Below, piece after piece: positions 5,772 to 27,508 of a stretch of DNA of 64,000 nucleotides. The translations under genes and the position numbers were made by a program. A model generated the notes under the pieces. That model was given only the letters and a program-made list of their open reading frames with translations, was not told the DNA's origin and did not search any database. Source of the DNA: a virus; the IMG/VR virus record IMGVR_UViG_3300006192_000004, positions 1-64,000 of that record; one strand, given 5' to 3'. The number at the start of each line of letters is the position of its first letter. The stretch's first letter is position 1.

Positions 5772-7805
5772 ATGTCTCTTAATAAAAGTACTCCAAGAGC
5801 AGTATTCAAAGGCTGGCAAGATTTGTCAACCCGTGCGTTACCTGCAGAGCGCGACGAGTTGCCTATCCACTTACCACGCTTTTTCCTTCGTACACCAAAA
5901 GGTCCTGAGACGGATGAGTTGGTGGTTGGCGCAGATTTCCTACGTATGTATGGTAAAGATGCCGCAGACGAACTGAAAGAATACTTCTCACACCAAACCG
6001 TAGCCGCACTCACAGCTAACGCTGCGGGTAATGCTTTTTATGTCCACCGTATCCTAAGTGAAACGGCTAAGAAAGGGCGCTTTGTACTAAGCGCAGAAGT
6101 CGTAGTTCAAACATTCGAAGAATACGTACGTGCTACCGATGGCACTGTTACTTCGGATGAGAACGGCCCTATTACCAACAGTGGTGTAACCTTTGATGGT
6201 TCTTTAATCCGCTGGACAGTATCCCCAGTCGATGAACTCGAAGCCGGTGCGATTCCAAATCAAACTCCGGGTACCTTAGTGGGTAAAGTCGGTGAAGAAT
6301 CGACTATTTACCCTATTTTAGAATTCGAAGCGTCTTCTAAAGGTAAATACGGCAATAACATCGGCATGCGTATGTCGGTACCACATTTGAAAACGGCTGA
6401 CCCAGCCGATGCATTTGTAGTAGAAGACCAAAACACCATGATGTACCGCTTTGCGATCGTTGAGCGTGAAACTGCAGAAAGTACACCTGTCGTGGTTCCT
6501 TCTATTAATGCTGACCGTTCGATTGATGTGAGCTTTAAGCCAGGTGTTACTAATAAGAACACGGGTCAAACATTTGGTCTAGAGCGTCTAGTGGAAGACT
6601 GGCAAGACTTTACAGCGGGTCAAGTCAAGCGCTATGGTCCTTTTGGTCAAATCTACTTCTACGAAGATAACCTAAAAACTATCCTCGATGCCATTAAGGT
6701 AACTGAAGAAGCAGAAACGGGCACGGCCATTGCCGACGCACATCTAATCAACCCATTTACCGCGATTAGCTGGGAAGGTATCGAGCACGAAACCGTGCGT
6801 CTATCATCGGACTCTGTTGCCCTAAATAGCGCAACAACACACTACTTAAAAGGTGGTGATGACGGTGACATGACAGATGCTACGTACGACGATCTTGTAC
6901 GCAGTGAGCTTGAAACTGGTTGGGAAAACCCACTGAACCCTGTAAAGGACATGTTGCGATTCCCATTCTCAGTAATGTACGACACTGGCTTTACATTAGA
7001 CACTAAGAAATCAATGTTGGCGACTCTAGGTCAAAGACCGGACATCCACGTTGGTATCTGTACACATGTCGAAGGTACGGTTCCAAATGACATTGCTGCT
7101 GAAAGCTCAGTAGCGTTAGTGCTACTTAACGCCGCACGTCTGACTCCAGAGTCTAGCGTCTATGGTACGGGTGTCTGCCGTGCTACCATTACTCGCTCTG
7201 TAGGTACATGGACGTCTTCTTTACGTAAACGTACCGTACCACTCATCATTGACTTAATCCATAAACGTGCTAAGTACCTAGGTGCTGGTAGCGGCATTAT
7301 GAAGTCGGTTGAGTCTTATGACGAGTACCCAGCAAAACTGGTTACTGAGTTGTCAGGTGTGACTAACACGTATGTGCCACAGACACCAAAAGACAACTTC
7401 TGGGATTATGGCGTCAACGGTGTTGAATACCTAGGCCGTACTGAAATCGGTTGGCCGGCTATTCAGTCCATCTATGAGAACAGTACTTCGGTACTAAACT
7501 CAGACATCGTGATGCAAATCATGGTGGATGTGACTAAACAAGCAGCACTGACTTGGGCACAGACGTCAGGTGGTTCTAAAGAGACAGATTCCCAATATCA
7601 TCAACGTGTAGAAGAAACGTTCGATGGTAAAGTCGCTAACCGTTACGACGGTCGCGTGACGATTCGTGGAACGTCTTATAAGACCGCCGCCGACGAACTG
7701 CGTGGATATAGCTCTAACATGGACATTGAAGTCTATGCAGATGTTATGCGCACTGTTCAGCAATTTAACATCATCGCTCGTCGCCGTAGCGACCTCGATG
7801 CGTAA
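5772..7805 (+). CDS. Contractile tail sheath protein
   Basis: The 677-residue product is close in size to PhiKZ-type tail sheaths and lies 15 nt before the tube gene, the usual sheath-tube order. It begins with a short extension and a compact domain (PRFFLRTPKGPETDEL), has a variable middle (residues about 120-330), and ends in a helical-plus-beta domain with NRYDGRVTIRGTS followed by DIEVYADVMRTVQQFNI, like the sheath carboxyl domain that packs on the tube. It would polymerise around the tube and contract at infection. The start follows GAGGA. The family call rests on order, size and general resemblance. Confidence 0.82.
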   Translation: MSLNKSTPRAVFKGWQDLSTRALPAERDELPIHLPRFFLRTPKGPETDELVVGADFLRMYGKDAADELKEYFSHQTVAALTANAAGNAFYVHRILSETAKKGRFVLSAEVVVQTFEEYVRATDGTVTSDENGPITNSGVTFDGSLIRWTVSPVDELEAGAIPNQTPGTLVGKVGEESTIYPILEFEASSKGKYGNNIGMRMSVPHLKTADPADAFVVEDQNTMMYRFAIVERETAESTPVVVPSINADRSIDVSFKPGVTNKNTGQTFGLERLVEDWQDFTAGQVKRYGPFGQIYFYEDNLKTILDAIKVTEEAETGTAIADAHLINPFTAISWEGIEHETVRLSSDSVALNSATTHYLKGGDDGDMTDATYDDLVRSELETGWENPLNPVKDMLRFPFSVMYDTGFTLDTKKSMLATLGQRPDIHVGICTHVEGTVPNDIAAESSVALVLLNAARLTPESSVYGTGVCRATITRSVGTWTSSLRKRTVPLIIDLIHKRAKYLGAGSGIMKSVESYDEYPAKLVTELSGVTNTYVPQTPKDNFWDYGVNGVEYLGRTEIGWPAIQSIYENSTSVLNSDIVMQIMVDVTKQAALTWAQTSGGSKETDSQYHQRVEETFDGKVANRYDGRVTIRGTSYKTAADELRGYSSNMDIEVYADVMRTVQQFNIIARRRSDLDA

Positions 7806-7820
7806 CCGGAGGCCGGATAA

Positions 7821-8681
7821 ATGTCACAGGTTTTATTAGACAGCGCCCACAGTTTGAACCGTAATTCAAACTCAGGTGTGGCTGACCCACGTGTGGGCGG
7901 TCAAAACGGCTTCATCCCTGATTTTGCTAACTGGGCAAATGCAGGTAAACTGGTTAAGGGCCGCTTAATTGCGGTTCTTATTCAAGAACCTACAGGTATG
8001 CAGCTACAGGATGACGGTACGGACCGCATTGCCTTTTTAAAGGCAATGGTTGAATTGTTACCAAAATCCATTACGGGCCTCGTACGTTCTAAGAACGCCG
8101 AATTCTTAGAAACAATTGCATCCAATGGCGGCGAGATGTTTGAAACGGTAACTAAGGTTACTCGTGACCGTTCTACTCCTACTTTCGTATGGGACGAGTT
8201 AGACGGTAAGCCGATTACTCGCATCATCGAAGACTGGATGGATGAGTTAATGCAAGAAGGCGACTTAGGTCACCCTTCAATCATTAATAAACCGTCGTAT
8301 GAAGAAGCAGGTTCGCCTGCGATTACTCCAGACTTCCAGTCAATGGTTGTGTTGTTTATTGAACCTAACCGTTCAATGACAGGTGTAACTTCAGCGTTCC
8401 TGTGCTCAAACATGATGCCTAAGGGCTTTACAGACGAATCGCAACGTGCGGTAGGCGAAGCCTTAGAAGGTCTAGAACAGTCAGTAGAGTTCACGGCATT
8501 TACTATGGTAGGCGACGCCGTTAACGCAATGGCCATGGAGTATTTGGATTCAGTGAATAAGCAGGGCCTAGCGCCACGCTCATTAACTGCATTTACTTCA
8601 GGGCTATCGGTTAACGTAGCGGATGATGCTGTGCCTATTGGTGGGCGTGCTGCTGTAAACAACGTAGCATCTAGCTTGTAA
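7821..8681 (+). CDS. Tail tube protein
   Basis: The 286-residue product is encoded immediately after the sheath with a strong GGAGG site. It starts with an Asn/Ser-rich flexible segment, then FANWANAGKLVKGRLIAVLIQEPTGMQL, resembling PhiKZ-like tube proteins. It would stack as rings forming the inner DNA conduit. The operon ends at a strong bidirectional terminator 17 nt after the stop, which is consistent with a high-level late transcript. Confidence 0.8.
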   Translation: MSQVLLDSAHSLNRNSNSGVADPRVGGQNGFIPDFANWANAGKLVKGRLIAVLIQEPTGMQLQDDGTDRIAFLKAMVELLPKSITGLVRSKNAEFLETIASNGGEMFETVTKVTRDRSTPTFVWDELDGKPITRIIEDWMDELMQEGDLGHPSIINKPSYEEAGSPAITPDFQSMVVLFIEPNRSMTGVTSAFLCSNMMPKGFTDESQRAVGEALEGLEQSVEFTAFTMVGDAVNAMAMEYLDSVNKQGLAPRSLTAFTSGLSVNVADDAVPIGGRAAVNNVASSL

Positions 8682-15955: not shown

Positions 15956-18900
15956 TTACTCCCCTGCTGCCAGATAAGCTTCGGCTAAAAGCTGATTCTT
16001 TTTCCGCACCGTCATGTTCATTACCCCTTGGATAATACAGGATAATACAATTCGGTTATTCACTGATTGAGCGCCGAATATCAGGTCAATGTCTCGCCCG
16101 TCTTCGGTTCGGTTAATCCCTTCCAGTGTACGCCCATGCACCGTTTTAAGCTGGTTAGCCACGACTGACTTATCACCGATGCCCGACTCCAGTTCCATAT
16201 CAATATAAATACTGATAATCACTTTACCCGGAACCAGTTTTTCACCTGAGATAAACGTAGGTTTACGTACGAGTCCGGTTTTACCAGCCGTGCTTCGATT
16301 TAAGTCCTTGACCTCTTTCTCACGTCGAGCATTGTCTGCTTCAACTAAAGCTTTTAATGAAGGACTCATTTCGGAAGGGTCTCCCATATAGAAGACTTCA
16401 ATGCGGGAAACTTTACCCCCTACTTTAGCTTTAGGAGATTGACTGGACAGTTTACTTAGGGCTAATAGAGCCGCATCGGTTTTCTCTAACCCTAAAGTAC
16501 CCGCTTCCTTAATGGTTACCAGTTTAGTATCAAACTCAACTACGTCCCCTACTGAAACTAATCCTTCAATTTCCTGGTCAAAGTCAACCATAATCCCTTT
16601 ATTCTTAGAAACTGAAGTCATCAGTTTTCTTCTAAAGGCATCACTGATAGCTGAACCATCTTCTAACGTATCGTTACCTTCCTTTAGAGCGACAACAGCG
16701 GGTACACCCGACAACATAATGACGTTTTCTGGGTTAAAGAAATCACGGGTAAAGAAACCACTGTTCCAGGCCAATACATATCCTATTTTAAACCGACTTC
16801 CTTTTACCTTATCCGTAACGTAATTATGAGGGATGAGTTCCCCGGCTACAACGCCATGTTTTGTACCCAGTCGGTAACCTTCCTTACTCCCGTCTTCGTA
16901 TTTTACCTGAATGACATTATCGGTAACTTTAACGACTTCACCATCTTGCTTTGCCCTAAAGACAAAGAAGTCAGATAGGCGGGAAGCAATAACAGCGTCA
17001 TATCCAGTACGATACGGCATGGGTTCACTGCCGACCGTAGGGACAACCGCTGACTGCTGTATTGCCCCTAAAGCGGCGCGTTTCCCATCATCACGGTCCA
17101 TGTCAGGTAGCGTTAATGCGGTTGTAGATAGTAATGAACTCGAACCGTCATCTGGATCATACTCGCCATACATACCACGAAGACTCTGGACTTTAGCATT
17201 TGGGGTTAAGAACCCACGTATCCCTACTTTAGCAGAGTCCGGGGTACTTTCACTTAAAATTCCTAAGTCGTTTTGGTCAAAGACACGGTTACGTTTTACC
17301 AGTGTACGAGCGGTACGTCCGCCTGTTCCTGATAGGGTAACTGCCTCTTGTTCCTTTAGTGCATGGATAGGGTTAATCTCAGACACAAGTTGCACGGATG
17401 CATCTTCATTTAGACGTCGCAATATCTCCGTAGGCGCGATGGTAATAGGTTCATTACGCGCGTTAGGCTTACGTCGTTGCTCAGCAATAGCTTCGTACAT
17501 GGCAAGATAGATAAGTCCAGATACACGTTCTAGCCCACGAATACGCATGTATTTAGGGTCGGATTCACGAGGGGCATCATTGGTCTTAACCAGGTCGGCA
17601 GCACGAATAAACAAGTCAATTAAGTTTTCAGGCTCTTTCATGTCACGCAATACTTCTAACGTGATAGGGTCTAAAAACAAATCGTTCATTAATGTCCAGT
17701 TATCAGTATGCCACTTATTCGCCCCGTAATGACTTAAGGAAGCCATCCAACCGTCTTTACGGTTAAACTCGGCACTGTTAAGGCGCCGCGTCATGTCCTC
17801 CATGTCGGCTAAGCCATTCCACAGTATCGCTTGTAGCGGGTCTGATACGGTAATGTATATGCGTTCATCGGCAAAGTTTACCGCGATTTCATTAAGTCCT
17901 GGACTTAAACGTTTGTCTAAGGTCTCCCAGCGATGAGGTACCTTTAACTTACGTAGAGTCTTGTCCAAACCCAAATGGTAGGCAATGAAATAAATAACCG
18001 GTACTTCACGTCGACCCGACTTAAAGACAGCAATGTCACCAGGGCGTTTACCCCAGCTACCACCTAGCGTACCTAAGATGTCTAGTCCAGGTAAGTCTTT
18101 ACCAGTAATGAACCCATTTACATCCATGACCATTGGCTCACCTTTATAGGTGCCGCAGATAACTGAACCTTTCTTCTCTAAACGAGAAACAACTTCTTTA
18201 CCGTAACGCTCAATGCGTCCACTGTATACAAAGTCAAAGGTTAGGTCACCAGACTTAAACCCACTGTAGTCAACCATAAGTGCAGTGTAGTCTCTTGGCA
18301 GCAGTACGTTAGGTACGGCGTTAGTGCCATAACGTAAGCTAGTTACTCGCTCATCCGCCGTACTCATGGCAGTTTCACGGATAACTTTACGCAACCATCG
18401 GTCACTGTCGTTCTTAGCTAACCCACTTCGATTGATAAAGATTTTACCCGCGTAAGAAGTAATGCCTGCTTGGTTCGATTTTGTCTTACGAATCGGGATG
18501 TCGGTTTTTTGGTTATCTATGCTGTATCGGATCCCCCCTACCATAAACGTTCCGTCTTCATTAAATACAGGAAGTTCTATTTTAAAGGTGGTTTCACGCC
18601 CTACCACCGGCAGGAGTGTAATCTCCAGCGTCTGCGTTTCTTCTAACGCGTCTGCGGTTTTAGTGACATTATAGTCGCGTAAGATAACCCCGCCTCGGTT
18701 TAACGATAGGAACACATTAGCGATGTCTTTGTCCATGACTTCACGCACATACTTAGACTTCATGTTCGCGACTGTAGACTTTAATGCTTTTTCTGGTACT
18801 ATGGGAGTATCAATCGGCACATTGATGTCTGGGTCAATGACCGTGTCTTCTGGAGTAACAGTAGCAAACTCAGCCAGAGTAGTTTTACCATCCGGAGATG

Positions 18901-19891
18901 GAATCTCTGCCATAGCAACAATTGCGTTTGCATAGCGTTTCTGCTGAGCCGCCGTTAATAACCCGACTTCTACCATTTCCCCTAGCTGCTGCTGTAATGC
19001 AGGTGGCATCAGTTTTGATACGGCTTCATCACTTGCATCTTCTGTATCGGCTTCTTTTGAAATCGCCCCCGCTTCTTCGTCAGAAACCGTGCGCGTCATC
19101 AAAAGCTTTTCTAACAGGTCATGAAACTTAGCCCCGGCAAGCGCATCGGTATCTGCAAAAGTATAAAGTACCGATAATGGCAAGAAGACTGACTTAGTGT
19201 CCACGGTGAATATAAAGTAAACGTCTTCCGATGTAATCTTCTCAATGAGGCTCGGTGCCCCTTTTAACATGCGGTAGATTTCCAGTACCCATTGAAGTGC
19301 TGGGTCTCTAAGTCGTTCACGGTGTGAAACGCTGATACCTTCTAAGTTTACTTTAAACTCCGCTTCGGTCATCCAATGTCCACCAATAGGAATCTGAATG
19401 AACTGTGGGCGACGTCCATTAACTCGGTTAATCTGCTGGATGACCGTTTCTGCCATGTTAGCCCAGAAGTTTTGATACACATCTACACTGTGAGCATAGC
19501 GCACCATACGCGGAATCAACGTATAGTCTAAGACGACCATGTCACGTTCATCCATAATGTCACGCTCTAAATTACGACTGCGCTTTAAACCGGGCTGACG
19601 CTTAAAGTACTCTTTAGTATACTTCATTGCGTTAAACTGAATGTTCTGTGTTCTACCGTTAGGATAAAGCCCTTCTGTAATTAGATTAACGCGAATCCGT
19701 GTAGGCCAGTGTACAGCAAGTAAACTGTCTGCACGGAACCCTCGGTCGTCAGGACTTAATGGTACATAATGCAATAACGTACCTTTAGGCATCGTTAAGT
19801 TAATCATGTCAACTAGCGGGGTTGAAGTAAGCAGTAGGTTCTCCCTTGCCCCTAAGCGTCGCATGAAATTATCGACATTAATCAGTGTCAT
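15956..19891 (-). CDS. Virion-type RNA polymerase beta subunit (1311 aa)
   Basis: This is a single-chain beta subunit of a phage multisubunit RNA polymerase. Around residue 447, LPVFNEDGTFMVGGIRYSI matches the bacterial PLMT..GTFIINGxERV region. Around 895, GFLTPNAKVQSLRGMYGEYDP occupies the place of the ETPEGxNIGL region. Residues about 950-1100 show the VPRTGxE-like RTGYDAV segment and a flap-like part (LGTKHGVVAGELIPHNYV). Near 1240, GIGDKSVVANQL is the GDK basic motif, followed by GRDIDLIFGAQSVNNRI in place of VDIxLNPxGVPSRM. It starts 2 nt after the beta-prime stop, so both are made together. In PhiKZ-like phages this enzyme is packaged and transcribes early genes. Confidence 0.88.
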   Translation of the reverse strand: MTLINVDNFMRRLGARENLLLTSTPLVDMINLTMPKGTLLHYVPLSPDDRGFRADSLLAVHWPTRIRVNLITEGLYPNGRTQNIQFNAMKYTKEYFKRQPGLKRSRNLERDIMDERDMVVLDYTLIPRMVRYAHSVDVYQNFWANMAETVIQQINRVNGRRPQFIQIPIGGHWMTEAEFKVNLEGISVSHRERLRDPALQWVLEIYRMLKGAPSLIEKITSEDVYFIFTVDTKSVFLPLSVLYTFADTDALAGAKFHDLLEKLLMTRTVSDEEAGAISKEADTEDASDEAVSKLMPPALQQQLGEMVEVGLLTAAQQKRYANAIVAMAEIPSPDGKTTLAEFATVTPEDTVIDPDINVPIDTPIVPEKALKSTVANMKSKYVREVMDKDIANVFLSLNRGGVILRDYNVTKTADALEETQTLEITLLPVVGRETTFKIELPVFNEDGTFMVGGIRYSIDNQKTDIPIRKTKSNQAGITSYAGKIFINRSGLAKNDSDRWLRKVIRETAMSTADERVTSLRYGTNAVPNVLLPRDYTALMVDYSGFKSGDLTFDFVYSGRIERYGKEVVSRLEKKGSVICGTYKGEPMVMDVNGFITGKDLPGLDILGTLGGSWGKRPGDIAVFKSGRREVPVIYFIAYHLGLDKTLRKLKVPHRWETLDKRLSPGLNEIAVNFADERIYITVSDPLQAILWNGLADMEDMTRRLNSAEFNRKDGWMASLSHYGANKWHTDNWTLMNDLFLDPITLEVLRDMKEPENLIDLFIRAADLVKTNDAPRESDPKYMRIRGLERVSGLIYLAMYEAIAEQRRKPNARNEPITIAPTEILRRLNEDASVQLVSEINPIHALKEQEAVTLSGTGGRTARTLVKRNRVFDQNDLGILSESTPDSAKVGIRGFLTPNAKVQSLRGMYGEYDPDDGSSSLLSTTALTLPDMDRDDGKRAALGAIQQSAVVPTVGSEPMPYRTGYDAVIASRLSDFFVFRAKQDGEVVKVTDNVIQVKYEDGSKEGYRLGTKHGVVAGELIPHNYVTDKVKGSRFKIGYVLAWNSGFFTRDFFNPENVIMLSGVPAVVALKEGNDTLEDGSAISDAFRRKLMTSVSKNKGIMVDFDQEIEGLVSVGDVVEFDTKLVTIKEAGTLGLEKTDAALLALSKLSSQSPKAKVGGKVSRIEVFYMGDPSEMSPSLKALVEADNARREKEVKDLNRSTAGKTGLVRKPTFISGEKLVPGKVIISIYIDMELESGIGDKSVVANQLKTVHGRTLEGINRTEDGRDIDLIFGAQSVNNRIVLSCIIQGVMNMTVRKKNQLLAEAYLAAGE

Positions 19892-19893
19892 GG

Positions 19894-22011
19894 TTAATCA
19901 CCCGTCATTATTTTTAACACAAGGTCGCTGACGTCCGTTGTGAGGTTATACGTTAAACCGCCGTTAGGCGAGATGTAGGTAGATTTAGCAGCCAGTCTAG
20001 CTTTCGCCTCGGCAACCCCCTCATCACTATTAATGAGTGTACAGGATAGTACATCTCCATCAAACTTTGTCTTCTAGGTGCTCGTAACGCACCTACTGTT
20101 ATACAGCTCTAGCTCTCGCTAGACGACCTGGAGTACCCCAGGAAGGGCTTTCGCCGAAGAGACTATATCATCACCCTATAGAACTGTTACCGCGCTATAG
20201 GGGCTCCCCATTTCCATTTAAGCCATCACAGCCCCACCATTCACTTGTGGGCGTACTCTACTCGCTTCCCCTAAGGCATGTTGACCTTAGGCTATTATCC
20301 CTCCGGGTATTTCTCCTGGAGTTAAGCTTTCGATAGTCGTTGAACTCATTCCATATCTGTTAATAGACTTAGGAACTTCGCTGCGTCGATTTTCTCTATT
20401 CTCAAGATTATCACTATAAAACCAAAGTCGTTAACTTTAACCTTTACGATGTTTCCATGTAAAGGGAGTACTTGAGACCTAACAAGAACTTCCCGCAATT
20501 AGAGGAGTTTATTTACTGCACATTACTGCGCAGGCGGACTTCTAATGGTTTACATTAATTTTATCCGCACCTAATGGCTTTAGCATATATGGGCTAACCG
20601 CCATGGTATCAAAGAAAGGCAGTTTATTTTTTGTATCCGGAAATTCTAGGGCTTTGTTGCCCGTAGGGTTAAAGTCCGCATCCAGTTCTTCTAACAGTAA
20701 GCCATTGACTGTTGTTTTAACATAAATCTCTGATGCATAAATAGAGCCTAGTCCCGTTACTGGGTACCGGGTACAGAACGCCATGTTCTTTTTAATGTTA
20801 TCTTTAGATAATAAATAGAACATCTCTGCCCATGACATCGGGGTAACATACGCCTTATCGTATCCTTCCGGTAACTCACGGATGTCTTGCATAATCCGAT
20901 ATTGTTTTCCGTCATTATAGATGAGTCTTAAATACTTACCGTCGATAGTAACTGGGTTATGTCTAAGGGTGGCATCTGCAAAGCCATTGATGATGCCTTC
21001 TAATCCCTCACTGGTTAACCATTTCTCTCTAGCTTTGTCAGAAAGGGTGACAGCTACCGCTTTAAGTGATTCTCGGTCTATCAGACGCGGGTCTTCATAC
21101 TCGTCAAATAAGTCAGAAAGAAACAGCTTACGGAATGCGTATTCCGTAACATAGGCTTCGTTTCCTTTGATGTATTGAAACAGGCCAATAATCGTCGTGT
21201 TTAAACCGGGCTGGCGTTCATCGCCTAGATAAGACGAACCCACTTCCATAGACGAAAGTACGTTACGTGTAGAGCCAATGATTTTACGTGAGGCTAGCTT
21301 ACCCTGTAGAATCCCTCGCTTACCTTCTAACATGTTAAAGATGTAGTCGTAGATGTTTACAACGGCTTTCTGTAAGTTAGCTTTAGCTTCGTCTAAGAGT
21401 GAGCTATTACGCTGCTCAAAATCCACGTTAATGGTATTGGCTACGGAAATCACACGTCGATACAGTGGGTTAATGTCTTCTTCTTTAGGTTGCCCATCTT
21501 CTGTAATTTCGATATCACGAATACCGGCAGGGATGACAAAGAGACGCTTAATAAAAGCCTGATGGCGATATTTCTCTAACAGGTCGATACGCAGGTCACG
21601 TCGCTGTGACTTATTGCGTTTAAACTCAATCTCGTTAAAATGAGAAGTAAAGAATGCAAAGCCGGTTTCCCCTGTCATGATGTCAGCGCGTACAAAGTCT
21701 TTTTCTTCAGCATCCCAGGTTGCATAGCCTTGACGTGTGAGTATGTCTAGATACAGTTGCTTTAAGGCAATCAGTTCTTTAAAATATAAGGGATGGAAAA
21801 TAGGAACCTTTAGATTAATGTAAGATTCTTTGGTTTCACGGGCACTATCGCCCTGACGACCAAAAATAACATTAGAGTATAACCCCTGTGGGTTAAAGTC
21901 GCCATTCTTTCCTTCGAAGAGCTGTAGGGACTGCACGGGCAATAGACCGGCAAAGGTATTATCGACATCCCTGACAAAACTGATGTTAAAGGGAAGTAAT
22001 TTCGGTTTCAT
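19894..22011 (-). CDS. RNA polymerase beta-prime amino-terminal fragment, interrupted by a group I intron
   Basis: Join on the minus strand of exon 1 (20563..22011, 483 codons) and exon 2 (19894..20064, 56 codons plus TAA) gives 539 aa. Exon 1 holds switch-like GKRGILQGKLASRKIIGSTRN near residue 227 and RYPVTGLGSIYASEIYV near 415, matching RxxxLGKRVDYSGRS and RxPTLHRxxIQAF. The junction creates GADFDGD at 481-487, with Asp483, 485 and 487 as Mg ligands. Exon 2 (DEGVAEAKARLAAKSTYISPNGG) aligns with [22 protein letters not shown] of bacterial beta-prime. The rest of beta-prime must be encoded elsewhere, as in related phages. Unspliced RNA would give a 489-aa product ending KINVNH and lacking FDGD. 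The start follows TAAGGAA. Confidence 0.9.
20065..20562 (-). ncRNA. Group I self-splicing intron (498 nt, no ORF)
   Basis: P1: exon end GCGGAU (20568-20563) pairs with GUCCGC (20539-20534), with the U-G wobble exactly at the splice site. The intron ends in G (20065). P7: GACTAT (20338-20333, within GTTCAACGACTAT) pairs with ATAGTC (20166-20161, within GATGATATAGTC), matching the classic R and S elements. P4 candidate: TGCG of AATTGCGGGA (20500-20491) pairs with CGCA of AATCGACGCAGC (near 20388-20379). UUU of exon 2 can form a short P10 with GAA before the IGS guanosine. The long interval between P7 strands suggests extra helices as in subgroup IA. No endonuclease frame is present. Confidence 0.9.
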
Positions 22012-22108: not shown

Positions 22109-25100
22109 ATGGCAAACGATAAATTCGATTTGGATGATTTGGATTCTATTTTAGATTCACTGGATGACAGCCAGCCAAGTGAACCAAAGACGCCCAAAGA
22201 GCTGGGAACAAGAAAAGTTATTGAGTCAATAGCCCTAGGGGCAAAGGACTCAATAACTGAAAAGAATACGGTTTCTAAGCATGCTGGCATCATTGCAAAA
22301 AATGCTTTGCCAGAAGGGTATAGCAGCGCATTAGGCGCAGCCGACCAAGGCGCAGCTTTCTTTATGGACCTATACAATGGTTCGATGAAGCAGCTAGAAA
22401 AACCACTAAAAGACCTTAGAAAAGCCATTGCAAAAAAGGCCGACAGTTTACCAGACTTAGTCGATGGGAAGATAAAAGATCTTCTAAAAAGCTGGAGCCC
22501 AGATGAAGAAACCATACCAGAAGCAAAAGGTGCTTATAGTGCCGACCGTCTATTAATCGACAGTACCCTTAAATCGGTATTTGGGGCACAGCGTGCTCTT
22601 GTCGAACAGAACGCACTGAGTGGCGAACGTGCAGCCGCGGTAGAAGCTAAAGCGGACTTGTTTAATAGCAGCTCTTTAGAATCGACACGTCTGGTACTTG
22701 ACCAAGTCAGTCGACTCGTCGGCTATAATGACACTGTCAACTTTAAATGGCAACAGAAATCACTCGAGCTTCAACATTTACAATACTTTGCTCAGCGTGA
22801 CCTATTGCGTATCTTTACAGGGCATTCCCGTGACGTAGATGCACAACTAGCGTCTATTGTTCATAACACTGCATTACCTGAAGCTGTAAAAATCCAGACG
22901 ACTGAAGGGTTTATGCAGTCTCAGAAACAAAGGCTCTATGGTAATGTAGGGGATACTATCGAAGAGTATCAGGATAAGTTTCTGGGTAAAACCAAAGAAA
23001 ACATCCGTAAGAAAATCGATGGCTTTGTTCAAGATTTAGCAACGAACATGGGCACTATCACGGACATTATTTCTTCCGATGGCTTAGACTTAGGTGACAT
23101 GTCTTTAGAAGAAAAACTTCGTCTAGGGGGTTCGCTAGCCGGTGATGTGCTACAGAGTACCGTAGGGGTTAAGTTAAGTAAAGGTATCGGTAATAAGCTT
23201 AGAAAGTACATAGAGCGCTCTCCCTCGTTAAAGACGAAGTCTAATGAACTCATGTATTTGTTCGAAAACTTCCCTTCTATCTTTAACGAGGAGTTACGTA
23301 ACTGGGATGGTAAGGTTCTTCCACAGAGCATACTGGATAAGGTACCTGCCTTAGGGGCGTTAGATGCGTCCTTTATTAAGGATGGGCTACGGGATATCAT
23401 TCCTCGTAATACCGTTAAAGGGCTACAGATAGACCAGCCTAAGTTGGATGAGTTAGCCGCCCCAGTTACATGGAGTGAACTAGAACGCCGCAGTTTGGTT
23501 GACATTATCCCTTCCTTCTTATCTAGACAGTTACAGGAACTCGAACAAATCCGAACAGGGCAAAGCGCTGAACGTCAAATGTACTCCTTCGAGGAAGGTG
23601 GTATTGTCCGTGAAAGTGAAGCTAAGCAACAGCTCCAGAAAACTATATTCGGTGATGATACGCGTAGCCGTAATCGTTACGCCGATGCCCTGGTAAGATT
23701 ACTAGGCGTAGGGTCTGGAGTAGAGCTTTCACCGGAAGCGGATGAGGCTTTACGTGCCGTATTACTGGGACAGTCTCAAAAAGGAAAAGCGTTTAACATA
23801 GAAAGCCTAAAAGAGATGGATTATGGGGACGAAGCAGTTACCTCAGAAATCCTTTCCATGATTAACCAATCTAAAGGGAATCTAAGTCAGCGCAATCTAT
23901 CTGGGGCGCGCATCCAGAAAGAGCTTGCTAAAGGTCAGCGCGAAAACCAGCAAATGTTAAACTTTGCTGTAAACAGCGGACAGTTAGATGTTCTTAAATC
24001 TATGGGACTGGTAGGACGTAATAAGTACGGCGATTTAAAAGTCGACCAAGCAACTGCGGCACGCATGGCCTACGGCAATGAATCACCGGATGCGTATACC
24101 GTAGCAGAGTCATTTGTGGCCCAGCGTCCTACTGTAGCTTCAGGTGGTAATAGTGATTTAAGTCAGTTCATGGTAGACATGAATGGGGTATCGTCATTAC
24201 CGGTTCATATCTCTACACGTACACAAGACGCTGAACTGGAATTGCTTGAAACTACACGCAGTGGTTTTAGTGACCAAATTCAATTGCTAGATGCTATACT
24301 GGGCGGTATCCTGAGAATGGAAGCCGGTGTAGGTGGAGGTGAGGGTTCGGCTGATGGTTCGATGCCTAAACGTAAACGAGGGATTGGCGGCATCATTGAA
24401 TCCACGCTTAGTGGGATGGGTAACTTTACACGTGGCTGGTATGGCGGCATCGCCGACTTTACAACAGCAGGTGCAGGTGCTATAGGAACTATTCTTGGGT
24501 CAGTGACGGGGCGACGTAAACCCGGTGACTCCGACGTTTATGTAGCGGGACGTAAAGAACCTGCCATTCGTGCCAATCTCTTAAAGAAAGGCTTTTATCG
24601 AAACAAAGAGACTGGGAAACCTATCTTTTCAATCGATGAAATCGACGGTGAAATCGTTGACGCAAATGGAAACGTGGTCATTACTCAAAGTGATGTTGAT
24701 GACGGAATCTATCTAGCCACAGGTGAAAACATTACTGAACTCTTTAATAAAGGGTTAGGTTTTGTTAAAGACAAACTGCTAAATACCATCGGTTTTCAAA
24801 ACATGCTGGTCTCTAAGCTAATGTCATTACCAAAAGCCGGATACGACGCCATCACTAAACGCGTAAGGGATATCTACGTACGTGGAGAAACCCGCCCGCG
24901 TCTACAGGCGCTATTATTAAAGAACGGGAGTTACTTTTCTGCCGTGACTGGTAAGCCGATATATAAAGCCGAAGATATCGACGGTGAAGTACTGGATGCA
25001 GCAGGTAACGTGATTATCAGCAATGATGACTTAGTGACAGGATTGGTTGATAATATCGGTACGCCAATTGGCGGTAACCGTTTAGTTCAACTAGCTAAAA

Positions 25101-27508
25101 ACATCACTACTACAGGGATGGACTTAGCGTCTCGTCTTGCAGCGTTCTCTATTGACCAAGGTAACCGTATTGTTTCTGGAACCTACGATTTCATGTCTGG
25201 CATTAAAGACATGGTAATGGGCGGTATTACCATTAACAAAATGGGTTATGGCGAAGGCGGCGGCTCAGACGTTATCACTAAAATCTATGACCATATGCGT
25301 CGCCGTTGGCCATTAGAGGGAGAAAGTGTTTACTCAGACATGAACCTCGATGCTGATAGAGATGACGATGGCATACGGGATAACTCATGGCAAGATATTC
25401 TTTCACGTAGTGAAGACAGTGCTGCTGAGCCAACTGCTGCTGTAGACACCGAAGAGAAAGAAGAGAAATCCTCGGGTGGCTTACTCAGTTTTATAATGCC
25501 ACTTATCGGAAGTATTACTTCTGGCTTCGGTGGACTCATGGAAGCCTTAAAAGGTATTGGGACTACCATTGCTACCTGGTTTGCTTTTAATAAGGCATCG
25601 GCCACTGGAGAAGCTGCTAGTGATATCCTCGGTGACTTGACCGGTGCGGCAGGGGATGGACCAGGCCGTAAGACTCCAGGTAAAAAGGGGTTCATGAGTA
25701 AGATACTGGGTGGCGCTAAAAACTTAGTTGGTAAGGGATTAAATTTGGTACGCGGAGCGGCACCGGTTGCTATGGCTGCCGCTAAGTGGGGAGGTAAGAA
25801 ATTACTGACTACAGGAGCTGCAGCAATTGCTGGTGTCGCAGGTGCCCCAGTTATCGCCGCCGCCATTACGGTAGGTGGACTTGCTTATGCTGGGTATGAA
25901 GTCTATAGCTATTTCTCTAAACGCTCTAAGCCAAAAGAACTGGAACGATTACGTTTCCTTATGTACGGTATTAACCCCGAAGACATGGACGACGTAGTTA
26001 AAATCCGAGAAATGGAATCTGACGCGATTGATGAAGTTTCCTTTACTTCACGTGGTCCTACGTTTGCACTATCTGTAGGCGACGCAGTAAGTCGCTACGC
26101 GAAGATATTTGGCGTAGACATGGAAAGCAGTTATGACTTACAACGATGGGGTGAGTGGTTTACACGCCGATTCTTCCCGGTGTTTATGGTGAACTTAAAT
26201 CTGTCTAAAGGGATTGATAAATCGATTGACTTATTGGAAATCGACAGTGCCTTAGATAAGGAGCGTAAAGCTGAGTTTGCTACGGCTTTAGCCTCACCTG
26301 CTAACTATACTGGAGGTAAACTGCCATGGAACAACACCATGTCCCCTTACCCAGGTAAAGGTAGTCCGGTTATGCCATCGGACATTAGCATTGCGATTCA
26401 TAACATCGCCTCCATGGGTAAAGGTGATGAGAAATACGAAGGAGAGTTTAACACCGCGCCTAGTGAAAACTCATCGGAGACCACTAGACCTGCAACTGAC
26501 TACATGAAAGCAAAAAGTCCGGTTACTCAGTATGGCGCAAATACCGCACCTAAGCCAAGCAGTTATTCCTCTACAGGACAGCTCGCGGCAAAAGGCGGCT
26601 TAGACTCTGCTATTGTTGGGGCGTCAGCTAAAGCAACTGGAGGCAGCATACGGATGATTATGCCATGTGAGGGCAGAATTAGCTCGCCTTATGGCATGCG
26701 CGTACACCCTATCACGGGGGCCCGTAAAATGCATAATGGCGTAGATATTGCTGCTCCTAAAGGTACGCCGATTGTGGCTGCGGCTGATGGTATTATATAC
26801 CGTCTGTACATCTCTAAGAGTTATGGTAAGGTTATTTATCTAAAACATGAAAACGGGATGGCTTCTCGCTATGCTCACATGGATAACTTTGCGGTAGGTT
26901 TAGCCATGGGTGACCGAGTTAAACAAGGTCAAGTCATTGGTTATGTGGGGAACACGGGCGCTTCTGCTGGAGACCATTTGCACTGGGAAGTCCGTGTGAC
27001 TTCAGCACAGTGGGCAGATACCATCGACCCATTGACACTAGTAGGCGGGAATGTCAAATCCGATTTAGCGAAGGAAGAGAAAGCCATTGTTAAGGATGAG
27101 ATAGCGGCGGAGAAAGAGTCTTCTGATACCACACTAGAAGGCCAAGATACACTTCGTTCGACATTGATTCCAAAATCGGTTGAAGACAATAAGCCTTTAG
27201 ATACGGCTCCATCAACCAATGCGACCCCTAATCCAGTTATGGAAAAAGAGAGAGCTCAGGCGCAGGCAACTGCAACCGCTAAAGAGTCCGCTAAAGCACT
27301 CGATGTACAGATGGGTGCACTAGAGAAGGCATACGCGCAACGAGAAGTGATGATTGCAAACCAAACGGCTTCTTTAGAGAAGCTTGACGCGATTCATCAA
27401 GCCTTAGTTGACATGCCTGGATATCTTAGCAGTGTAAGTAAACCTACCTCTGCAACCAAGCGTCCTGCAACTAACCGTGTAAACGGCGTAGTTAAGATGA
27501 CCGACTAA
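22109..27508 (+). CDS. Giant tail protein with M23 peptidase domain (PhiKZ gp181-like)
   Basis: The 1799-residue product is the largest here. Its amino third is charged and helical. At about 808-870 and 920-985 it carries two copies of a module (DVYV-G-K/T-x-P... TGKPI... DIDGEV-DA-GNV-I). Hydrophobic stretches follow near 1125-1165 and 1235-1270. An M23 endopeptidase domain follows with H1542-NGVD1546 and H1623-L-H1625 as zinc and catalytic residues, then a coiled tail. It is next to beta-prime as in PhiKZ, where this protein is a virion peptidoglycan hydrolase. It probably combines tape-measure-like or tail-tip structure with cell-wall cutting at entry. The ATG follows CCGGAG. Confidence 0.82.
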   Translation: MANDKFDLDDLDSILDSLDDSQPSEPKTPKELGTRKVIESIALGAKDSITEKNTVSKHAGIIAKNALPEGYSSALGAADQGAAFFMDLYNGSMKQLEKPLKDLRKAIAKKADSLPDLVDGKIKDLLKSWSPDEETIPEAKGAYSADRLLIDSTLKSVFGAQRALVEQNALSGERAAAVEAKADLFNSSSLESTRLVLDQVSRLVGYNDTVNFKWQQKSLELQHLQYFAQRDLLRIFTGHSRDVDAQLASIVHNTALPEAVKIQTTEGFMQSQKQRLYGNVGDTIEEYQDKFLGKTKENIRKKIDGFVQDLATNMGTITDIISSDGLDLGDMSLEEKLRLGGSLAGDVLQSTVGVKLSKGIGNKLRKYIERSPSLKTKSNELMYLFENFPSIFNEELRNWDGKVLPQSILDKVPALGALDASFIKDGLRDIIPRNTVKGLQIDQPKLDELAAPVTWSELERRSLVDIIPSFLSRQLQELEQIRTGQSAERQMYSFEEGGIVRESEAKQQLQKTIFGDDTRSRNRYADALVRLLGVGSGVELSPEADEALRAVLLGQSQKGKAFNIESLKEMDYGDEAVTSEILSMINQSKGNLSQRNLSGARIQKELAKGQRENQQMLNFAVNSGQLDVLKSMGLVGRNKYGDLKVDQATAARMAYGNESPDAYTVAESFVAQRPTVASGGNSDLSQFMVDMNGVSSLPVHISTRTQDAELELLETTRSGFSDQIQLLDAILGGILRMEAGVGGGEGSADGSMPKRKRGIGGIIESTLSGMGNFTRGWYGGIADFTTAGAGAIGTILGSVTGRRKPGDSDVYVAGRKEPAIRANLLKKGFYRNKETGKPIFSIDEIDGEIVDANGNVVITQSDVDDGIYLATGENITELFNKGLGFVKDKLLNTIGFQNMLVSKLMSLPKAGYDAITKRVRDIYVRGETRPRLQALLLKNGSYFSAVTGKPIYKAEDIDGEVLDAAGNVIISNDDLVTGLVDNIGTPIGGNRLVQLAKNITTTGMDLASRLAAFSIDQGNRIVSGTYDFMSGIKDMVMGGITINKMGYGEGGGSDVITKIYDHMRRRWPLEGESVYSDMNLDADRDDDGIRDNSWQDILSRSEDSAAEPTAAVDTEEKEEKSSGGLLSFIMPLIGSITSGFGGLMEALKGIGTTIATWFAFNKASATGEAASDILGDLTGAAGDGPGRKTPGKKGFMSKILGGAKNLVGKGLNLVRGAAPVAMAAAKWGGKKLLTTGAAAIAGVAGAPVIAAAITVGGLAYAGYEVYSYFSKRSKPKELERLRFLMYGINPEDMDDVVKIREMESDAIDEVSFTSRGPTFALSVGDAVSRYAKIFGVDMESSYDLQRWGEWFTRRFFPVFMVNLNLSKGIDKSIDLLEIDSALDKERKAEFATALASPANYTGGKLPWNNTMSPYPGKGSPVMPSDISIAIHNIASMGKGDEKYEGEFNTAPSENSSETTRPATDYMKAKSPVTQYGANTAPKPSSYSSTGQLAAKGGLDSAIVGASAKATGGSIRMIMPCEGRISSPYGMRVHPITGARKMHNGVDIAAPKGTPIVAAADGIIYRLYISKSYGKVIYLKHENGMASRYAHMDNFAVGLAMGDRVKQGQVIGYVGNTGASAGDHLHWEVRVTSAQWADTIDPLTLVGGNVKSDLAKEEKAIVKDEIAAEKESSDTTLEGQDTLRSTLIPKSVEDNKPLDTAPSTNATPNPVMEKERAQAQATATAKESAKALDVQMGALEKAYAQREVMIANQTASLEKLDAIHQALVDMPGYLSSVSKPTSATKRPATNRVNGVVKMTD

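Follow-up and report, generated by a model that had tools for sequence, protein, structure and literature searches.

Positions 1 to 64,000 of the IMG/VR virus record IMGVR_UViG_3300006192_000004, a 64,000-nucleotide stretch referred to here as the window, carry what is very probably a self-splicing group I intron (20562..20065, minus strand, 498 nt) between the GAD and FDGD codons of an RNA polymerase beta' gene. The whole record comprises 114,024 bases and may be a fragment. Our analysis supports the group I reading put forward in a first-pass annotation of this DNA. Introns in the beta' gene and its metal-binding motif are already present in public records (Escherichia phage Goslar, Bacillus phage AR9) and the window holds a further, ORF-less one. 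More notable than the window intron itself are the density of insertions at the motif and the occurrence of micro-exons.

Gene structure and product

Exon 1 (22011..20563, minus strand) extends for 1449 nt from an ATG at 22011 and ends in LGAD; in a profile search it matched phrog_2986 with an E value of 1.7e-163, covering positions 1-484 of 539. Exon 2 (20064..19894, minus strand, 171 nt) starts with FDGDVLSC and consists of 56 codons followed by TAA at 19894. Read without splicing, the open reading frame (22011..20542, minus strand) encodes 489 residues, passes the conserved region and stops after KINVNH. Excision of 20562..20065 joins the exons in frame and yields a 539-aa beta' subunit, identical in length to the phrog_2986 profile (539), with the GADFDGD motif intact, so that coordinates and translation agree with the rebuilt motif proposed in the first-pass annotation. 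Its claim that beta' homology resumes in frame after the intron held, weakly: the best PDB match of the spliced protein was a bacterial beta' chain (whole-sequence E 0.0022) with GADFDGD aligned on NADFDGD, single stretches of the protein being without significance alone.

Judged by sequence, the predicted product is the beta' N-terminal subunit of a jumbo-phage RNA polymerase, kin of Vibrio phage Yong XC31. PhiPA3 gp212 was matched over residues 1-539, and the gp212 record likens this protein to PhiKZ gp180, which we take to be the virion beta'. By this kinship, the window beta' would belong to the virion and not the non-virion RNA polymerase. The next gene (15956..19891, minus strand) encodes an unbroken 1311-aa RNA polymerase beta (phrog_3148, E 0). 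The divergent neighbor at 22109-27508 on the plus strand encodes a 1799-aa protein with a tail-fibre-family profile across its first 1071 residues; profiles of peptidases or endolysins lie near residues 1430-1680.

A second IMG/VR contig is identical over 11,467 nt. The two contigs possibly stem from related samples and are not clearly independent, but an assembly error is unlikely. The intron-plus junction had one match in viral_contigs, namely this twin contig, and the spliced, intron-minus pattern had none; records near the window may be omitted from that collection.

Intron structure and splice sites

A covariance search, one of the checks proposed at the outset, gave a match to the Rfam group I intron model RF00028 at 20561..20144 (minus strand). 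The score of 56.4 bits lies 6.4 bits over the cut-off of 50 (E 1.2e-11) and the alignment covers the whole model (1-253). It is the sole Rfam gathering match in the window and the sole RF00028 match in the whole record. A full-length match with this E value, single in the record, is far beyond chance.

The P1 helix had been described with its wobble pair exactly at the exon boundary, and this is where we located it: the exon strand GCGGAU (20568..20563) pairs with the internal guide GUCCGC (20539..20534, minus strand, intron positions 24-29), the last U of the exon pairing with G at the 5' splice site. GCGGAU/GUCCGC is the single exon-intron pairing of at least six with a wobble at the junction, and P1 forms in the unconstrained fold (z of -2.80 against 100 shuffles). 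A small hairpin is predicted in the P1 loop (20542..20558, minus strand). The RF00028 alignment further places the core strands AAUUGCGGG (20492..20500, minus strand) and CGCAGC (20380..20385, minus strand), which we take to represent the P3/P4 region and the region of the P4 3' strand, respectively. Both P7 strands named in the first-pass annotation were found, based on alignment and position, as GACUAU at 20338..20333 and AUAGUC at 20166..20161 (minus strand). A long insert separates P7 5' from P3 3' in the alignment of the window intron; group I introns of subgroup IA have extra helices between these strands.

The ends of the intron were set by P1, the rebuilt motif and the terminal G, which the first-pass annotation had also indicated and which a check of the spliced product places at 20065. 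Two further 3' splice sites would also be in frame and would insert KTK or TK before FDGD; 68 uninterrupted relatives, described below, carry nothing at this position. As stated in the first-pass annotation, the intron contains no ORF, the longest ATG-started frame encoding 20 residues. The 114-kb record, itself possibly a fragment, yielded no HNH_3 match. A hidden endonuclease remnant was looked for and not found, the Yong XC31 HNH protein giving a best tblastn E value of 2.4 against the window.

Group I intron RNA splices itself with guanosine as a cofactor. In the window transcript, P1 would display the exon 1 U·G junction for attack by a guanosine bound at P7, and the freed exon 1 would in turn attack just behind the terminal G at 20065. 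GAD and FDGD would thereby be joined and the catalytic motif restored. Splicing in the cell is predicted from these features.

Comparison with Yong XC31

Vibrio phage Yong XC31 (vB_VmeM-Yong XC31, MK308674), whose deposit contains hypothetical proteins only, carries an intron at the same GAD/FDGD position (L003:9453-10882; RF00028, 69.9 bits; the slash marks the insertion point). It is 1430 nt long and has a 315-aa HNH_3 ORF between the splice site and the guide sequence, in contrast to the 498-nt window intron without an ORF. In the window this region holds the small P1-loop hairpin, which Yong XC31 does not share. Exon 1 is 71% identical between the two phages. At the nucleotide level, blastn gave 81.7% identity over 387 nt for the intron and 67% over 1270 nt for exon 1, and no match for exon 2. 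In the Yong XC31 beta gene a further RF00028 match falls below the threshold (43.3 bits, E 2.9e-9); the window beta gene has none.

We mapped the 157 pairs of the predicted window fold onto Yong XC31: 95 are unchanged, 8 varied on one side, 16 compensatory, 18 broken (among them those of the P1-loop hairpin) and 20 gapped. Pairing is retained in 16 of 22 pairs changed on both sides and in 8 of 20 changed on one side. Dealing the changes at random gave a mean of 3.3 compensatory pairs and a maximum of 9 in 2000 trials against the 16 observed, a count that benefits somewhat from the use of the window sequence to predict the fold.

Relatives with and without the interruption

The first-pass annotation had named relatives encoding a 489-aa protein ending in KINVNH and a separate FDGD-containing gene as one case against splicing. 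A tblastn search with the unspliced ORF reached 294 phage records, and among the 40 matches listed 39 end at residue 483 and one at 485. Since 483 is the predicted exon end, conservation does not extend into the KINVNH tail. We also drew 60 records evenly from the 294; among these, the match of the spliced protein ends at 483-497 in nine and near residue 260 in three distant ones.

For the comparison with intronless relatives, also suggested at the outset, we examined 93 loci, made up of the window, 14 phage records and 78 IMG/VR loci. The IMG/VR set came from the best 80 of 230 stretches encoding relatives, which gave 79 loci; L018 and L097 duplicate the contig of L002 and were left out of the counts. 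An unbroken [FYH]DGD is present in 68 of the 93 loci and interrupted in 25, the IMG/VR part again being the best 80 of 230 stretches. As several of the 14 phage records were picked for an early match end, we give a frequency for the IMG/VR loci alone: 14 of 78 (from the best 80 of 230 stretches) are interrupted inside the motif, near-copies being kept (L092 and L095 share an identical exon 1). Selection of these loci rested on their similarity to an unbroken exon 1, which would leave interruptions within exon 1 under-counted. A scan of genome_contigs gave one relative (L098), uninterrupted and outside the counts.

Phage and IMG/VR loci together show insertions at six positions within 12 nt. 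Insertions at GAD/F are found in the window, Yong XC31, Goslar, Vibrio phage 2 TSL-2019 and T2P, in L036, L041, L061, L063, L065, L073, L092, L094 and L095, and as the first introns of L021 and L089. One insertion lies one base past this site (L047) and one lies two bases past it (L058, whose junction follows from the rule that introns end in G). FD/GD is interrupted in GXNNE2, pir03, AR9 and by the second intron of L089, FDG/D in ZPAH34, ACP1 and phiR1-37, and the position after FDGD in VP4B, L025 and by the second intron of L021. Phages of Vibrio, Pseudomonas, Aeromonas, Escherichia, Yersinia and Bacillus have the beta' motif interrupted at slightly different positions.

Goslar (NC_048170) shares the window junction (RF00028, 67.7 bits) and bears the depositors' label Intron_gpI; unlike the ORF-less window intron, its 2044-nt intron carries a 490-aa HNH_3 ORF and is distant from that of the window in the intron tree. 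In AR9 the same gene and motif are affected, with exons joining YD/GD, two codons past the window site; the AR9 record joins three exons. AR9 (L014) stands outside the 93 loci as its gene is split earlier by another intron, an upstream group II intron (L014:5115-6612; RF02004 80.7 bits, RF00029 55.2 bits) that has been published (PMC12350094). The same source places AR9 and PBS1 introns in the virion beta' N-terminal gene and names that of AR9 as group I (PMC12350094). RF00028 gave no gathering match on the partial AR9 stretch. Among the papers listed by searches of an open library, none describes the beta' motif as an intron hotspot, judged by title or abstract.

The 93 loci contain 27 insertions, 26 of which were scanned with Rfam, all but that of L095; the loci L012 and L017 also lay outside the scan. 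The RF00028 cut-off was reached by 19; three scored below it (L009 46.7, L016 40.7 and L061 29.6 bits) and four had no match (L063, scanned at the cut-off only, L008, L010 and L011).

On a quick tree of the 93 exon 1 proteins, interrupted and intact states require 17 changes, and starred branches force 16 of these. With labels shuffled, the mean was 22 changes and only 3 of 500 shuffles were as low as 17, which points to some clustering of interrupted loci. Presence and absence are precise at the junction of L063, which has the intron, and of L056 and L072, which lack it, with flanks 92-94% identical. Similarly, L021 carries two introns and its close kin L025 the second one only. Between L063 and L056 (6426-6440 in both), each of the five codons preceding the junction has a third-position difference, and the first five codons past it differ at one base, perhaps because of co-conversion or because the exon was fitted to P1.

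A tree of 23 introns, with bootstrap not settled, showed no grouping by site. In this tree, and with the same reservation, the window and Yong XC31 introns are sisters (99/98), the two introns of L089 pair (92/84) and TSL-2019 (GAD/F) pairs with VP4B (after FDGD; 98/99). A single origin of the GAD/F introns was not supported: the 13 in the tree need nine changes, of which starred branches force four, and a count this low was reached in 475 of 500 shuffles (bootstrap likewise not settled). Most likely, several lineages of introns arrived at the motif, and some of them moved between beta' and beta. TSL-2019 (L005:5426-7142) and VP4B (L006:5438-5934) are close relatives whose sister introns lie 12 nt apart, as if the site had shifted.

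Twin introns and micro-exons

Two loci carry a pair of introns around a very short exon. In L089 (IMGVR_UViG_3300021440_000015), introns at 6447..6855 and 6862..7200 flank the 6-nt micro-exon TTCGAT (FD), and in L021 (IMGVR_UViG_3300031933_000228), introns at 6456..7938 and 7951..8366 flank the 12-nt micro-exon TACGACGGCGAT (YDGD). All four match RF00028 with 60.5 to 79.9 bits, and removal of both introns rebuilds GADFDGD in L089 and GADYDGD in L021. A small exon between two phage introns, together with exon skipping, has been reported for the Bastillevirinae (PMC11878797). The 6-nt case offers a test of the minimum exon that two neighboring group I ribozymes can share.

Origin, mobility and alternative readings

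Autonomously mobile group I introns encode a homing endonuclease and the window intron encodes none; with no HNH_3 found in the record either, it cannot home alone. We infer the order of ORF gain or loss and the mode of movement: the window intron may have been inherited from an ancestor shared with Yong XC31, or brought in with endonuclease help in trans. The site lies in codons that the polymerase cannot change, which makes imprecise loss harmful and the target common to many phages. A review describes introns as profiting from sites at conserved residues, since an imprecise deletion there destroys the gene (PMC12908238).

It is possible, though less probable than not, that the window lineage or Yong XC31 gained the intron by transfer after their divergence and not from a common ancestor. 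The higher nucleotide identity of the intron than of exon 1 could be read in this way, as could the patchy presence of introns on the beta' tree and the kinship of the window intron, seen by blastn, with sequence between the beta gene pieces of pir03 and BONAISHI. However, a ribozyme core may outlast third codon positions in conservation, and the window and Yong XC31 are sisters in their introns and likewise in their exons. The blastn search also found resemblance to Staphylococcus phage sequence, located between two DNA polymerase pieces in Alsa_2. Introns have also been proposed as a source of split polymerase genes (PMC7598289).

A tentative addition to the intron reading is that the ORF-less intron is kept as a shield, occupying the target of HNH endonucleases of co-infecting phages. 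HNH_3 was matched above cut-off by six of the seven intron ORFs tested at the motif, and the same codons have been invaded repeatedly in many branches. The precedent is PhiPA3, whose group I intron (RF00028, 67.8 bits) encodes the HNH enzyme gp210, which according to PMC11620839 nicks the intron-minus PhiKZ gp178 polymerase gene and inhibits PhiKZ. The first-pass annotation had referred to an endonuclease-bearing intron in the virion polymerase of a related Pseudomonas phage; in this phage, PhiPA3, the interrupted gene is beta (gp211/209, homologue of PhiKZ gp178) and not beta' (PMC11620839). Both introns sit at conserved acidic codons of jumbo-phage polymerase genes, that of PhiPA3 following beta residues that match E. 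coli RpoB D675 (PMC11620839); a site shared with the window is rejected since the genes differ. Against a shield, the gp210 target is thus beta, no cleavage site is known for the beta' enzymes of these loci, and a nearly cost-free inherited intron fits the data equally well.

The window intron carries the account of PhiPA3 polymerase introns over to the catalytic motif of beta'. One may speculate that the codons of this motif are a battleground in jumbo phages, several lineages of introns competing for six insertion points that lie within 12 nt and settling side by side, until two catalytic residues are left on a 6-nt micro-exon between two ribozymes, with endonuclease-free introns persisting as shields; we consider this picture less probable than not. 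The natural intron-plus and intron-minus pairs (L063 and L056; L021 and L025), together with the ORF-less window case, allow one to ask whether such introns are parasite, weapon or shield.

It is very unlikely that the window intron has decayed and lost the ability to splice, in which case a defective gene or genome would encode a truncated 489-aa subunit. The missing ORF, the record without HNH_3 and the modest RF00028 score would fit decay, but core, P1 and P7 are intact, the exons are unbroken and changes relative to Yong XC31 are compensatory; ORF-less relatives at the motif also score well (e.g., L041 with 85.5 bits for a 353-nt intron). Two separate, unspliced genes, one for the 489-aa protein and one for an independently translated FDGD protein, deserve almost no credence and were rejected: the Yong XC31 deposit does list such pieces as separate hypothetical proteins, but the motif would be divided between two proteins and the window exon 2 is not translatable alone, since it has no ATG, GTG or TTG ahead of codon 49, no start codon precedes FDGD and an in-frame TAG lies behind three sense codons upstream.

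Further insertions in beta and beta' genes

Two recurrent breaks were also seen in beta, although the window beta is unbroken. One lies between positions equivalent to residues 464 and 465 of the window beta in four loci (L003:12459-13949, L016 after 10414, L041 after 8834 and L065 after 10574); the L003 case is the sub-threshold RF00028 match of Yong XC31 given above. Another, at about residues 935-937 and corresponding to the PhiPA3 gp210 site, is found in four loci (L012, L013, L041 and L047).

Aeromonas jumbo phages carry a compact insertion of 255-258 nt at FDG/D of beta' (L008:5417-5671, L010:5387-5644). RF00028 gave no match on these insertions or on their Listeria and Bacillus kin, and they may represent an unclassified intron type. 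By blastn, the insertion occurs in 11 phage records, eight of them of Aeromonas and some duplicates, with partial kin in phages of Raoultella, of Listeria, near a terminase gene and an endonuclease, and in Bacillus phage BpSp, before the gyrase A gene.
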